A stretch of DNA of 64,000 bases from positions 1 through 64,000 of the forward strand of contig CAMDFN010000004.1 of the NCBI GenBank assembly GCA_945897565.1, given 5' to 3'. Under the pieces are notes generated by a model that did no database searches, was not told where the DNA came from, and worked only from the letters and a program-made list of their open reading frames with translations. The stretch's first letter is position 1. The number at the start of each line of letters is the position of its first letter. Of the stretch, positions 1,499-11,340 are shown piece after piece. The position numbers and the translations under genes are program-made. The DNA is from Chryseobacterium gleum (GTDB lineage: Bacteria; Bacteroidota; Bacteroidia; Flavobacteriales_D; Crocinitomicaceae).

Positions 1499-2731
1499 CT
1501 ACCCCACCACCAACGTTCTCAATCGCACCACTTCATATTGCAATTCCGTGAGGTGCACAATAGCCTGAACAATAGTGGCGTGGTCGAAGGTGCGGGCTAC
1601 CCAGTGGATGTTGCGCAGATCGTGGTAACGTTGGTACTCCTTTTGTTGCCAGTTGTGCTGAATTTGGTTTAGAGAAAGTATTGTTTTTGACTGCTGTGTT
1701 GCATTTTGACCAAGTTGTTTTTCGGCTAAGGAGCGCAGGGTAATTTGGTATTTTATCCAGGTATTCCAAATTTTTAAACCGAATTTGTTCTGATTCAGGT
1801 TCTTGATATCTGTTCCAATCAATAAATGCATCGGGATATCAAAGTTATTTTTGTTTTCAAGCGCAGCTAAATTGAGGCTAATGATACCGAGCCGGCCATC
1901 TTTGGGTGGTTTATTCCACAGGACGGCTAAGTTGTCGGCATTGCGCATTTTGCCGATTCCTCCATTGACTTCATCTATCAAGGCTAACTTGACCTCATCA
2001 ATTTCAGCCAGTAGGTCCATGGTTTCTTTATCAATTTGAGCCGAAATAGCTTTGTTTGAAGGCGTAATGAAGCTGTTGCCAATCTCGATTTCTTGCGCAA
2101 TTTGCTCTTGAAGACTGAACTGATGTGTCATTTCGCTTTCCAAAACGCGAATGGGCAGTCTATTTGCCTGGAAAAACAACAAAAAGGCAATTAAACCACT
2201 TGCATTGACGAGATGACGGTGCTGAACGAGCTGAAATATGGGTTGACCTTCCTTTTTGACGAGTTCATAAATCACAACGAACATGGCGATAAATAAGGTG
2301 GTTGCAAGGAATATGACGGTGCCGGGATAATGCATGATCACAAACAAACTTGTCCAGCTCAAGAAGATAAAAAGAAGAAAACTGAAACGCGGAAGACCAT
2401 CTTTTTTATTGCGCATCAGAGCACTTAATAAGAAATAAACCGGAAGCATAAAGACCAAAGACAGTATGAGTAATTGATCTGCACCTGGCCAATGCATTAT
2501 TTTAAAAAACAAACCCTGCGAAAGGGCCAAAACAGCTACGAAATAAACAGAAGACAACAGTTTAGAAGCGCCGGACTTCCATTCGCCAATAAAATCAAGA
2601 ATATAAAAAATTGGGAAACCAAACGCCAAGGTGAGTATTAGTAATTGTGCGGTTCCGGTCAAATCTAAGGACTTGAAGATCAGGGTTAGAAATAACAACG
2701 ACACGGAGAGAAGGGCAAATAACTTTTTCAT
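1499..2731 (-). CDS. GldL-like polytopic membrane protein with C-terminal soluble domain
   Basis: 410 residues from the ATG at 2731; an in-frame start at 2794 would add 21 hydrophilic residues and is less likely, because MKKLFALLSVSLL begins directly with a membrane helix. About six helices fill residues 1-185. They form three similar hairpins, each with a short motif between its two helices: FKSLDLTG (19-26), FKIMHWPG (76-83) and FVIMHYPG (130-137). The HWPG motif is characteristic of GldL, a membrane component of the T9SS/gliding motor. The remaining 220 residues are soluble, mostly helical, and contain NNFDIPMHLLIG, which recalls the N-terminal periplasmic part of GldM; that resemblance is by eye only. 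No motor or secretion neighbours are visible. Function unknown. Confidence 0.8.
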   Translation of the reverse strand: MKKLFALLSVSLLFLTLIFKSLDLTGTAQLLILTLAFGFPIFYILDFIGEWKSGASKLLSSVYFVAVLALSQGLFFKIMHWPGADQLLILSLVFMLPVYFLLSALMRNKKDGLPRFSFLLFIFLSWTSLFVIMHYPGTVIFLATTLFIAMFVVIYELVKKEGQPIFQLVQHRHLVNASGLIAFLLFFQANRLPIRVLESEMTHQFSLQEQIAQEIEIGNSFITPSNKAISAQIDKETMDLLAEIDEVKLALIDEVNGGIGKMRNADNLAVLWNKPPKDGRLGIISLNLAALENKNNFDIPMHLLIGTDIKNLNQNKFGLKIWNTWIKYQITLRSLAEKQLGQNATQQSKTILSLNQIQHNWQQKEYQRYHDLRNIHWVARTFDHATIVQAIVHLTELQYEVVRLRTLVVG

Positions 2732-5576: not shown

Positions 5577-5632
5577 TCCTTGTAAAAGTTAACATCTAGC
5601 CAAATCAATTTTCCGCGGAATATGCCAAAATC

Positions 5633-5746
5633 ATGGAGACCTGGAGCCCAGAAAAGAAAAAGCGCTTTGCAGACACTTTTCTATTGACCCGTGGCCAAAT
5701 TAAAATACCGGAAAAGCCCATTGTGTGGAGCAATGAGGAGGAATAG
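5633..5746 (+). pseudogene. Copy 2 of a short gene tail (37-codon ORF, probable remnant)
   Basis: From ATG 5633 the frame encodes METWSPEKKKRFADTFLLTR and then GQIKIPEKPIVWSNEEE before a TAG stop. The frame stays open upstream to a TAG at 5597 (PNQFSAEYAKI precedes the Met), so it looks like the C-terminal tail of a longer protein rather than a complete gene. It is the better preserved partner of the remnant at 2809-2909, in direct orientation and on the other side of the cotH gene. Family unknown. A genuine 37-residue peptide gene cannot be excluded. Confidence 0.55.
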
Positions 5747-5800
5747 GAGTATTGAAATAAAGTGCGGAGCTCAAAAAGTACAGGCTGCTTTTTGAAAGCA

Positions 5801-5830
5801 AAAAAACCCCGAAGAAACTTCGGGGTTTTT
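5801..5830 (-). terminator. Intrinsic terminator behind tRNA-Phe
   Basis: AAACCCCGAAG / AAA / CTTCGGGGTTT hairpin flanked by A and T runs, lying just 3' of the tRNA gene on the minus strand. Because it is symmetrical it could also stop plus-strand transcripts coming from the cotH side. Confidence 0.9.
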
Positions 5831-5834
5831 GCAG

Positions 5835-5907
5835 TGGTACCTCCAGGAATCGAACCAGGGACACAAGGATTTTCAGTCCTTTGCTCTACCAACTGAGCTA
5901 AGGTACC
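5835..5907 (-). tRNA. tRNA-Phe (anticodon GAA)
   Basis: 73 nt on the minus strand starting GGTACCTTAGCTCAGTTGG. The acceptor stem GGTACCT pairs with AGGTACC, followed by discriminator A. The anticodon arm reads AAGGA-CTGAAAA-TCCTT, giving GAA for phenylalanine; the T arm contains GGTTCGATTCC. The 3' CCA is not encoded as a full extension. A -7 promoter box lies upstream and a strong terminator downstream. Confidence 0.97.
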
Positions 5908-5922
5908 AGCTATTGGTGGATG

Positions 5923-5955
5923 CAAATTTAACACATTTTTACTGTTTTACACAAG
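5923..5955 (-). promoter_or_regulatory. Promoter of tRNA-Phe
   Basis: On the minus strand CTTG (5952-5955) is followed after 21 bases by TAAATTTG (5923-5930), matching the Bacteroidota -33/-7 pattern. The tRNA begins 15 bases downstream of the box. Confidence 0.7.
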
Positions 5956-8047: not shown

Positions 8048-8607
8048 TGTTAGCTCGCGTACTTTTCCTTCTTTCTATTGCTCTATTGCTCATGCAGAGC
8101 AGTTGCGAAAACGATGTTGCGCTTGTACAGCGGATCAGTTACGGCGCTGATGCGCCTACAGAAAGCACTAAAAATTTGGTGCTCACTTATGCCGAAAATG
8201 GCTATGCCAAGGTAGAAATACATGCTGCACTCGCCGAAACCTACCGTGGGCAAACGCAAATTACCAAAATCAAAGACAGCCTCAAAGTGTATTTTTTCAA
8301 TGAACTCGGAGCTATTGTATCCACATTGAGCGCGCTTTACGGCGAAATCAACTACAGTACGGGAGAGCTCATGGTCAAGGACTCCGTGCGCTTATACAAC
8401 CACAAGAAAAAACAAACCCTCGAAACCGAGGTGCTTTTTTGGAACCAAAAAGACAGCAGTATTTTTACAGAATCTGCCGTTATTGTGCGCTCTCCAAAGG
8501 GGAAACTCTTTGGAAAAGGCATCCGAACCAAGCAAGATTTCAGTAATTATGTGTTGCTGCAGCCCGTTGGCTCATGGCAAATCGAACAAAACCAAACAAT
8601 TCAATAA
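8047..8607 (+). CDS. lptC: LptC-like LPS export lipoprotein
   Basis: 186 residues beginning MLARVLFLLSIALLL with a lipoprotein signal ending in QSSC, so probably anchored in the inner membrane facing the periplasm. The body matches the LptC/YrbK beta-jellyroll: repeated strand pairs such as VKDSVRLYNHKKKQTLETEV and a late KGIRTKQDFSNY segment. LptC passes LPS from the LptBFG extractor to LptA. An lptG-type permease lies at 58.3-59.4 kb. The start ATG 8047 shares a base with the preceding stop; the in-frame GTG at 8020 is not credible because it lies inside the previous gene and before the signal. Confidence 0.85.
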   Translation: MLARVLFLLSIALLLMQSSCENDVALVQRISYGADAPTESTKNLVLTYAENGYAKVEIHAALAETYRGQTQITKIKDSLKVYFFNELGAIVSTLSALYGEINYSTGELMVKDSVRLYNHKKKQTLETEVLFWNQKDSSIFTESAVIVRSPKGKLFGKGIRTKQDFSNYVLLQPVGSWQIEQNQTIQ

Positions 8608-8853
8608 ATGGCACAAAAAGATTTCATTAGTCGTTACAATCAGTTTTCTGGCTATTTCTGGCTCCTTATTACAGGCCTCAGTTTTTTAGTGATTACCTTC
8701 AAAATCATTACAGAAGGCCCGCAAACTTGGGTGGCTTATTATGTGATTCCAGTGATGGCGCTACTCATGTATTTCACCAAAAGATGGATGAGCAAGCGCA
8801 TGTACCGCCATTTAAATGAAATGGCCCAGCAAAAAGAAGCTGAAAATAAGTAA
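8608..8853 (+). CDS. Small two-helix membrane protein, unknown function
   Basis: 81 residues starting at the base after the lptC stop. Two membrane helices are evident (about residues 13-32 and 42-58), followed by a positively charged, then helical tail (RWMSKRMYRHLNEMAQQKEA). No family is recognised. Zero spacing to lptC suggests one transcript and possibly a function at the inner membrane near the LPS exporter; that is context inference only. Confidence 0.75.
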   Translation: MAQKDFISRYNQFSGYFWLLITGLSFLVITFKIITEGPQTWVAYYVIPVMALLMYFTKRWMSKRMYRHLNEMAQQKEAENK

Positions 8854-8883
8854 CCTTTTCGGTATTTATAGGTCTTAAGTAAC

Positions 8884-11340
8884 GTGAAAGCACTCGCACT
8901 TTTTACATTCATACTCGTTATTGGCAATGGCTTCGCACAGCGCTTGCTCAGTGGTTTTGTGACCAATGAAAGCAACTTGCCAATGGCCGGAGCCGAAATT
9001 TTTGTCAAAAATGCCACAGACATGCGCACAGTTGCCGATGCGCAGGGCTATTACGAAATGTACCTGAATGTAGGTGAGTATTACCTTGTGTTTACAGCTA
9101 ATGGCTACCAAGACAAAGAATCTTTTTTGGGGATGCGCGACGCCGACACCAAGCGAGACATCCAATTGTTTCCGATGAAACTCTCTGAGGTACAAGAAGT
9201 GCGCGTTACGGCTAAAAAATCAAATGTAGGGCGCGATAAAATCATGAAAGTGGTAGCACACCGCGAGCAACTCAATCAGTGGTCGTATCCGCATGAGGTA
9301 GATGTCTATATCAAAGCAACCGAACAACGAGAAAACACCGCTAAACCTAAAAACGAGAACAACCGCTCCGACGAAAACCCCATTGAAAACCAAAATAAAG
9401 CACCAGAATGGCTCAATAAATTGCAGTTGGTAGAAGTAGAACTACACCGCTCCTATTCTCCGCCAAATCAGGTGAAGGAAATCCGCAATGCCTACAAAGC
9501 ATTTGGCGATGTATCGCAGCTATACTACACCACAACCGTGAAATCAAATTTCAATTTCTTTGAAAACCTCCTGCACCTAGACGACCTCCACCAAACACCT
9601 GTAAGCTCGCCTATTTCCGCGCCGGGTATCATTGCCTACAAATACAAACTCGAGGAGAAGTACGAAGAAAATGGCTACATGATTTCCAAAATCAAGATCA
9701 GCCCGCGCAATACCGCAACCTCTACGCTGGAGGGTTATATTTGGGTGATCGATTCGCTATGGTTGGTTCAGAAACTCGACCTCAGCATGAATAAAGGAAA
9801 TTTACTGATCTACGATTATTTCCGCATCGAGCAAGATTACAAAATTCAGGGCGATAGCCTCTGCGTACTCGACAAACAACTCCTTACCTATGGGGTCAAA
9901 TACAAAAACGAGGTAAGCCAATGTAAAACAGAAGCGCTGTACAGCAATTACAACTTTGAGCCAACGTTTGCCAAAAAATACTTCAATTCAGAAGTAGCAG
10001 TAACCAGCCAAGAGGCTTACGAACGCGACAGCGCCTATTGGGTGCAAAAACGCGCTATTGCGCTCACCGACGAAGAAGTCAAGTATATCCGCGCCAAAGA
10101 CTCTATTACAGCATACCTCAACCGCAAAGAATACCTCGACAGCATAGATGCCGTTTTCAACAAGGTGACGGTGCTCAAAGTGCTGTGGTTTGGTGTAGAT
10201 CACCGCAACCGCGAGCTCAAACAACAATGGACCATCGGTTCTGTGGCCTCTACTGCGCAACCCATCGGTATAGGAGGTCCGCGCGTTGCGCCCAGCTTTG
10301 ATTATTTCAAGAAATGGAAAGACGAACGCACCCTCGATTCATATACCCGCATCACTTATGGCTTTTTGAACGGCGACTGGAAAGGCGACACCTGGTGGAA
10401 ATACCGCTTTGACCCCTTTCATTTTGGTTTTCTTCGGGTTGCCCTCACCCACGACTTCGATGTCATCCGTGGTTTTGATGCCATTACCCAGATTTACAAA
10501 CGCGACAACTTCTTTGAATCTACCAAACTGAACATCAACCTGGAATACGAGCTTTTCAATGGCTTTTACGCTTACGCTAACTCTCAATTTACCAAGAGAA
10601 GGAGTTTAGAAGGATATGATTTTTTGGATGGTATAGACCAAGCGCTGCCCAACAACGACCCACTTGCTTTTGACCCCTACAACGCCTACATCGTGAATTT
10701 TGGCGCATCTTATACGCCCAAACAGCGCTACATGCGCGAACCTTACCGCAAAGTGGTACTGGGCTCGGCCTACCCTACTTTTTCGGTGAATTACGAGCGC
10801 GGCTTGCCCAAGATTTTCAATAGCGCTGTAGACCACGCCTACTTGCAAGTTGAAATCATGCAGAATTTCAAGATTGGCACTTTGGGTACTTCCTCTTATC
10901 GCGCATCTGTCGGGAAATTCCTGAGCGCGCGTGCGGTATACGAGCCCGACTACAAATTTCAGCGCAGAAGCGACCCCATTTGGTTTTCAAATCCGCTCTA
11001 TTCATTCCAAGGTTTTGATACAATGCTGCGCACCATAGATTATGTCATGCAAGCGCATTATGTGCACCATGACAACGGCGCTATTCTGAACAAAATACCT
11101 TATTTCAAGAAAACACGTGTAGGCTTGGTAGTGGGTGCTGGTGCGATGTATATCAAAGAATACAACTGGCAACACTACGAGGTTTTGGCTGGCCTGGAGC
11201 GCAATTTCAAACTGAGCCGAAGAAGACTGAGAGTTGGTATCTACGGGGTTATTTCAGATGGAAATCAAATCAGCCCTACCACGGCCTGGAAAGTTTCTTT
11301 TGCCATGCTAGATGACCGCAGCATGAAGTGGAATTTCTAA
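8884..11340 (+). CDS. DUF5686 / carboxypeptidase regulatory-like domain outer-membrane protein
   Basis: 818 residues from GTG 8884, giving signal peptide MKALALFTFILVIGNGFAQ. Residues about 20-95 form a carboxypeptidase regulatory-like domain (LSGFVTNESNLPMAGAEIFV, DAQGYYEMYL). The rest matches the DUF5686 family of large Bacteroidota envelope proteins with a C-terminal barrel ending in MLDDRSMKWNF. A low-complexity polar insert rich in N, E and K lies at about residues 150-185. The function of the family is not known. It follows the lptC cluster after 30 bases and converges on lspA with a gap of three bases. Confidence 0.85.
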   Translation: MKALALFTFILVIGNGFAQRLLSGFVTNESNLPMAGAEIFVKNATDMRTVADAQGYYEMYLNVGEYYLVFTANGYQDKESFLGMRDADTKRDIQLFPMKLSEVQEVRVTAKKSNVGRDKIMKVVAHREQLNQWSYPHEVDVYIKATEQRENTAKPKNENNRSDENPIENQNKAPEWLNKLQLVEVELHRSYSPPNQVKEIRNAYKAFGDVSQLYYTTTVKSNFNFFENLLHLDDLHQTPVSSPISAPGIIAYKYKLEEKYEENGYMISKIKISPRNTATSTLEGYIWVIDSLWLVQKLDLSMNKGNLLIYDYFRIEQDYKIQGDSLCVLDKQLLTYGVKYKNEVSQCKTEALYSNYNFEPTFAKKYFNSEVAVTSQEAYERDSAYWVQKRAIALTDEEVKYIRAKDSITAYLNRKEYLDSIDAVFNKVTVLKVLWFGVDHRNRELKQQWTIGSVASTAQPIGIGGPRVAPSFDYFKKWKDERTLDSYTRITYGFLNGDWKGDTWWKYRFDPFHFGFLRVALTHDFDVIRGFDAITQIYKRDNFFESTKLNINLEYELFNGFYAYANSQFTKRRSLEGYDFLDGIDQALPNNDPLAFDPYNAYIVNFGASYTPKQRYMREPYRKVVLGSAYPTFSVNYERGLPKIFNSAVDHAYLQVEIMQNFKIGTLGTSSYRASVGKFLSARAVYEPDYKFQRRSDPIWFSNPLYSFQGFDTMLRTIDYVMQAHYVHHDNGAILNKIPYFKKTRVGLVVGAGAMYIKEYNWQHYEVLAGLERNFKLSRRRLRVGIYGVISDGNQISPTTAWKVSFAMLDDRSMKWNF

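Follow-up and report, generated by a model that had tools for sequence, protein, structure and literature searches.

The gene located at positions 1499-2731 (minus strand) of the window, i.e. the whole stretch of 64,000 nucleotides that was analysed, encodes a protein that derives from the two-subunit GldLM motor and unites parts of both subunits in one chain. GldLM constitutes one of the few families of proton-driven rotary motors, and how its rotation is passed on to the outer membrane is not settled. Our preferred reading is that the fusion protein is an unpowered derivative of this motor that dimerises through its D1 domain and attaches GldM-type parts of the periplasm to the inner membrane as a fixed anchor or adaptor; we give this reading a probability of about 0.45. 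The open reading frame runs from an ATG at 2731 to a stop at 1499 (410 codons plus the stop); a start at the in-frame ATG at 2794 would lengthen the protein by 21 residues. A plus-strand reading of the same positions was rejected, with stops found throughout.

Three GldL-type hairpins follow one another from the N terminus, all encoded on the minus strand: hairpin 1 (residues 1-51; 2579-2731) with the linker FKSLDLTG (2654-2677), hairpin 2 (residues 57-107; 2411-2563) with FKIMHWPG (2483-2506), and hairpin 3 (residues 113-159; 2255-2395) with FVIMHYPG (2321-2344). As the initial annotation had proposed, these linkers begin at residues 19, 76 and 130, where they occupy the turns between predicted helices. 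A seventh transmembrane helix (residues 172-195; 2147-2218, minus strand) takes the position of the single GldM helix, according to hydropathy, loop charge, the alignment with GldM and a model helix spanning residues 172-220. It is followed by a periplasmic helical domain of the GldM D1 type (residues 196-410; 1502-2146, minus strand). The predicted structure, a monomer model of only moderate quality (pLDDT 67, pTM 0.47), contains the helix pairs 2-21/27-52, 57-79/84-106 and 113-133/138-159, then the helix 172-220 and the helical domain. All lysines and arginines of the loops (10 K/R) are found in the N terminus and in the loops TM2-3, 4-5 and 6-7, and none in the three linkers. By the positive-inside rule, the N terminus and the interhairpin loops are predicted to be cytoplasmic and the HWPG-type linkers periplasmic; since the loop charges set this orientation, the seventh helix would exit the membrane and leave the last 215 residues in the periplasm. 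The predicted topology is that of GldL, then that of GldM.

The relation of the hairpins to GldL, proposed at first from the linkers, extends well beyond the tetrapeptide. A GldL profile made from about 20 relatives matches the fusion protein at 1.1e-8, and the same profile matches the three hairpins of a sister fusion (G004) separately, at 4e-13, 9e-12 and 2e-7; the third hairpin thus scores alone in sister fusions. Pfam GldL_N recognises hairpin 2 at 6.1e-5, with 23.6 bits for a cut-off of 24, and exceeds this cut-off (25.3 bits) in a six-frame search of the genome. TIGR03513 matches hairpin 2 at 0.013, and its whole-protein score of 15.4 bits does not reach the curated family threshold of 68.3. 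A profile of five fusions also matches the solved GldL chains 7sau_C (2.4e-6), 7sat_C (5.5e-5) and 7sax_C (0.0015). In one orthologue (L084), the hairpin 1 linker is a regular FKALHWPG at the same place, and the DLTG of the window is therefore a degenerate copy of a GldL-type linker. A chance tetrapeptide was rejected on the basis of profiles, fold and orthologues. The fold search of the model returned no GldL match for the hairpins, which is an absence of match only.

The tail had been described as faintly recalling the GldM N-terminus. The kinship is confirmed, but it is far from faint, as residues 196-410 correspond to the full D1 domain. Using blastp, tail residues 232-409 align with residues 90-301 of the host genome's own GldM (E = 1.4e-20), and a GldM profile of the genus matches the fusion protein with an E-value of 3.8e-38; the single-sequence match of Pfam GldM_1st is weak (0.042). 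The motifs LNL, NFDIPMH, NIHW..TFDHA and LQ are common to the fusion and GldM, in the same order up to the end of D1. The five-fusion profile matches solved PorM as well (7sat_A, 9e-4; 7cmg_A weakly, 0.009). The nine best second-look fold matches of the model are all PorM/GldM chains (Z 10.8-15.0), the best unrelated chain scoring 9.0. These matches, which include 7cmg_A (Z 15.0; 168 residues, 2.9 A), 7sat_A (14.5) and 6ys8_A (12.9), pair model residues 192-410 with PorM residues 30-212. Foldseek alone returned no match below 0.001, PorM being its top hit at 0.21. The input alignment of the model contained one GldM row, which may have favoured the D1 fold; the evidence from sequence does not depend on this row. 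The fusion protein terminates at the equivalent of PorM residue 212 or GldM residue 220, and the D2-D4 shaft is absent. Since D1 covers residues 32-232 in the GldM of F. johnsoniae (PMC5790014), the fusion ends approximately where D1 ends.

Then, we investigated the distribution of the fusions, a check that the initial annotation had called for, and their origin. Full-length, stop-free orthologues were identified in three other MAG records (L083, L084 and L085, with 81%, 57% and 55% identity, respectively), and the MAG relatives closest to the host are labelled Flavobacteriales or Cryomorphaceae. The gene is under purifying selection: dN/dS between the window and L083 is 0.235, with the lowest value in the membrane part (0.14, vs. 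0.28 in D1), and lies between 0.2 and 0.24 for the unsaturated orthologue pairs. Fusions of the same layout are patchily distributed, occurring in 11 of the 75 genomes of the genus (G000, G331, G022, G285, G216, G324, G004, G024, G029, G189 and G273), and also in another genus of the same family (G106). No viral relative was found in one scan. A tree was built from 45 D1 domains; its root is arbitrary and several of its branches are long. It requires four changes between fused and separate forms, and strong branch support makes three of these unavoidable. The first fusion clade is that of the window (seven rows), the second (G004, G024 and G273) lies beside the canonical GldMs of G004, G024 and G036, and the third group (G029 and G189) lies with the canonical GldM of G189, which is 79% identical to the G189 fusion. 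In addition, the GldL nearest to the fusion hairpins of G029, G189 and G004 is in each case the one encoded by the same genome. Together, tree and hairpin kinship would fit two histories: the gldL-gldM pair of the genome was fused repeatedly, or a fusion of greater age was renewed from that pair by gene conversion.

These kinships bear on the main rival explanation, which we consider somewhat unlikely. The fusion would regulate the normal motor as one of its subunits: its D1 would pair with the D1 of canonical GldM, or its hairpins would replace GldL, resulting in motors that are mixed, stalled or tuned, with the fusion as brake, clutch or assembly factor. A canonical GldM match apart from the fusion is present in 10 of the 11 genomes with a fusion; G331 gave a GldL match only, near a contig end. 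A D1 closest to the own-lineage GldM, as in two lineages, and hairpins closest to the own-genome GldL would both suit mixed assembly. However, the D1 of the window lineage is separated from the canonical GldMs by a branch of 1.27, a divergence unlike that of a faithful heterodimer partner. Moreover, the host genome (2.24 Mb) carries a complete porP-gldK-gldL-gldM-gldN operon, in which gldK, gldN and porP were named by position and sequence beginnings, and the fusion gene lies outside it. This operon is located on another contig (L034), in agreement with the early remark that no T9SS operon adjoins the gene.

The gene neighbourhood was analysed in the same genomes. In G029, G189 and G106, the fusion gene forms a head-to-tail row with two genes encoding secreted GldM D3-D4 proteins of about 200 aa (profile positions ~402-574); the rows of G029 and G189 also share a secreted protein of 725-729 aa. 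The host has its own secreted protein restricted to D3-D4 (L135, 9648-10295, minus strand; 215 aa), which is 44.5% identical to GldM 402-589. Its gene is away from the fusion and adjoins that of a 482-aa secreted protein (L135, 10276-11724, minus strand), a pair kept at the same place in G285, G331 and G074. A kinship with GldN was considered for the secreted proteins of 482 aa and 725 aa encoded next to D3-D4 genes, and was not retained: the blastp match (E ~7e-7) covers 79 residues in a small database, and the GldN profile gave no support. Among the 75 genomes, D3-D4 genes were detected in 6 of the 11 with a fusion and in 20 of the 64 without, which is not significant (Fisher, P = 0.17); genomes with stand-alone D3-D4 genes were read by hand from a list omitting contig-edge cases, and the profile was partly built from fusion genomes. 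No fusion was found in several genomes with D3-D4 genes (e.g. G074 and G329). One contig (L116) encodes, at 8115-10382 on the minus strand, a 755-aa protein that joins GldL-type hairpins to GldM in its full length (profile 11-572); the other genes of its row encode two D3-D4 proteins and a secreted protein of 729 aa. Two genes lie upstream of the fusion in the closest orthologue, L083 (4270-5253 and 5290-6102): one encodes a lipoprotein matched by GldM_2nd (9.2e-6), the other a secreted protein of 270 aa that looks caspase- or C25-like by eye.

In the window itself, the fusion gene is convergent with a gene encoding a PKD/CHU_C protein and divergent from one whose CotH product also has PKD and a weakly matching Por_Secre_tail. 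Both products are predicted to be T9SS cargo; such genes are common in the phylum. Further along the window, a tRNA-Phe gene was found at 5834-5907 (minus strand), and the overlapping 109-aa ORF at 5605-5934 is spurious.

This neighbourhood can also be read as that of a truly homologous protein that has left the T9SS, a sensor, a transporter-like protein or an envelope-integrity protein reusing the helix bundle. We regard this explanation as unlikely. It agrees with a single gene without a T9SS operon partner, with the conserved neighbour of the fusion in G022 and G285, a large secreted protein transcribed toward it, and with the multi-hairpin relatives that several Bacteroidota groups possess, some of which have D1-like tails and others not. 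The predicted cargo on both sides of the gene nevertheless argues against it, common as cargo genes are, as do the three relatives that keep the fusion in a row with D3-D4 genes.

The hairpins also differ from GldL in the residue that carries protons. E49 in GldL TM2 is strictly conserved, and the alanine mutant loses secretion (PMC8986121). We found a glutamate at position +12 after the linker in all 40 canonical GldLs examined, in none of the 37 hairpin candidates of the 11 fusions, and in none of the 58 candidates of a second multi-hairpin class. The search pattern for hairpins also picks spurious or shifted sites (L002, L006, L040, L057, L059, L076, L083 and L170) and missed hairpin 3 of the window, which was read separately, with no effect on the glutamate count. 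Hairpins 1, 2 and 3 of the window carry G, M and A at +12, and even the G189 fusion with a whole GldM shaft (755 aa, profile 11-572) is devoid of the glutamate. The core of the seven window helices contains no acidic residue, D46 and E156 being located at cytoplasmic ends. Because the glutamate is missing from every hairpin, a function as proton-driven motor is unlikely. The idea of a fused relative of the motor therefore stands by descent, both homologies being significant, but probably not as a proton-driven machine.

A one-chain motor driven by protons through residues other than the GldL glutamate would keep the observed layout of stator hairpins, axle helix and D1, and would agree with the membrane part being the most constrained in dN/dS; we nevertheless judge it very improbable, with helix cores free of acidic residues, no fusion possessing the glutamate at +12, and a stator covalently joined to its axle. 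A chimeric assembly or a decaying pseudogene, which the degenerate linker of hairpin 1 might suggest, is refuted by conservation, with intact orthologues in three other MAGs under selection (dN/dS 0.2-0.24) and a locus apart from gldLM.

We return to the reading as an unpowered anchor. GldM D1 dimers pack via helix alpha1 (PMC5790014), and two copies of the fusion may, by analogy, pair through the same helix, which would place six tethered hairpins around two helices resembling an axle. Such an assembly would neither rotate nor use the proton gradient, because stator and axle form one chain and the membrane core has no acidic residue. It would instead constitute a fixed inner-membrane anchor or adaptor, offering a GldM D1 platform to periplasmic partners. 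As D2-D4 are absent, the fusion alone cannot reach the GldKN ring. The likeliest partners would be the resident T9SS/gliding hub, putatively contacted via separately secreted GldM D3-D4 proteins or via canonical GldM; the former are plausible links to the ring, since D4 alone is enough for PorN binding (PMC5790014). Both homologies, the topology, the loss of the glutamate, the D3-D4 gene rows and the conservation in four genomes argue for the anchor. Against it count the moderate monomer model, the unlinked D3-D4 protein of the host, the non-significant co-occurrence and a conceivable proton path through other residues. A broader scenario is possible, if rather doubtful: Bacteroidota would have repeatedly turned GldLM into an unpowered single-chain scaffold (hairpins, axle and D1, with the glutamate lost) that, together with secreted D3-D4 proteins, forms a second trans-envelope system, split into separate proteins and existing alongside the canonical motor.

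No published description of a fused, GldL-like or additional-copy GldL of this kind was found in an open-access library largely without subscription papers, and the word undescribed in the initial annotation fits this search. The parts are known; their combination and the glutamate loss are not described in the literature searched. Single-chain versions that occur in nature and lack the proton-carrying residue offer direct tests of the need for rotation, of the pairing of D1 with canonical GldM, and of the function of D3-D4 when off the shaft. The fusions would also be examples of a rotary motor that lost its drive but was retained for a different purpose, and this seems to have happened more than once.

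The nearest comparison outside the canonical motor is a class of two-hairpin proteins from other Bacteroidota groups (~380-420 aa; e.g. L046 7110-8360, L103 6852-8102 and L086-L102), for which we found no family name. Like the window fusion, they combine GldL_N (2.9e-6, 3.9e-12) and GldM_1st (8.7e-13, 0.0057) in one chain and lack the glutamate at +12. They consist of an 80-residue cytoplasmic head, two hairpins, one helix and a D1-like tail, and differ from the window fusion by the head, the number of hairpins and the shorter tail. This class is present in at least 7 of the 392 genomes of a phylum-wide survey in which few candidates were scored per genome, and most matches are partial. We also observed membrane proteins of about 900 aa with two GldL-type hairpins near residues 610-717 (L051 5436-8150 and L052 2832-5500), and GldM-like proteins ending early, after about 400 residues (L041 6744-8027, minus strand; L121, L122 and L123), of which that of L041 starts in a lipoprotein-like manner and not with the GldM helix.

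Compared with GldL/PorL (TIGR03513, Pfam GldL_N PF22827), each unit of the fusion has the GldL-type hairpin and a linker of the FKxMHWPG type, as supported by profile and PDB-sequence matches, whereas the chain has three such units and lacks both the GldL cytoplasmic tail and the E49 glutamate. Compared with GldM/PorM (TIGR03517, Pfam GldM_1st PF12081), it has one transmembrane helix followed by a complete D1, but no D2-D4, and the GldM-type helix is preceded by six others in a polytopic chain. The GldLM 5:2 motor (PDB 6YS8, 7SAT, 7SAU, 7SAX and 7SAZ) is made of two proteins, with separate stator and axle subunits and a proton-carrying residue; the fusion, without these, is one polypeptide with a ratio of hairpins to axle helix of 3:1 (6:2 if dimeric), and yet its helices and its D1 are of the same kinds and follow the same topology as those of the motor.
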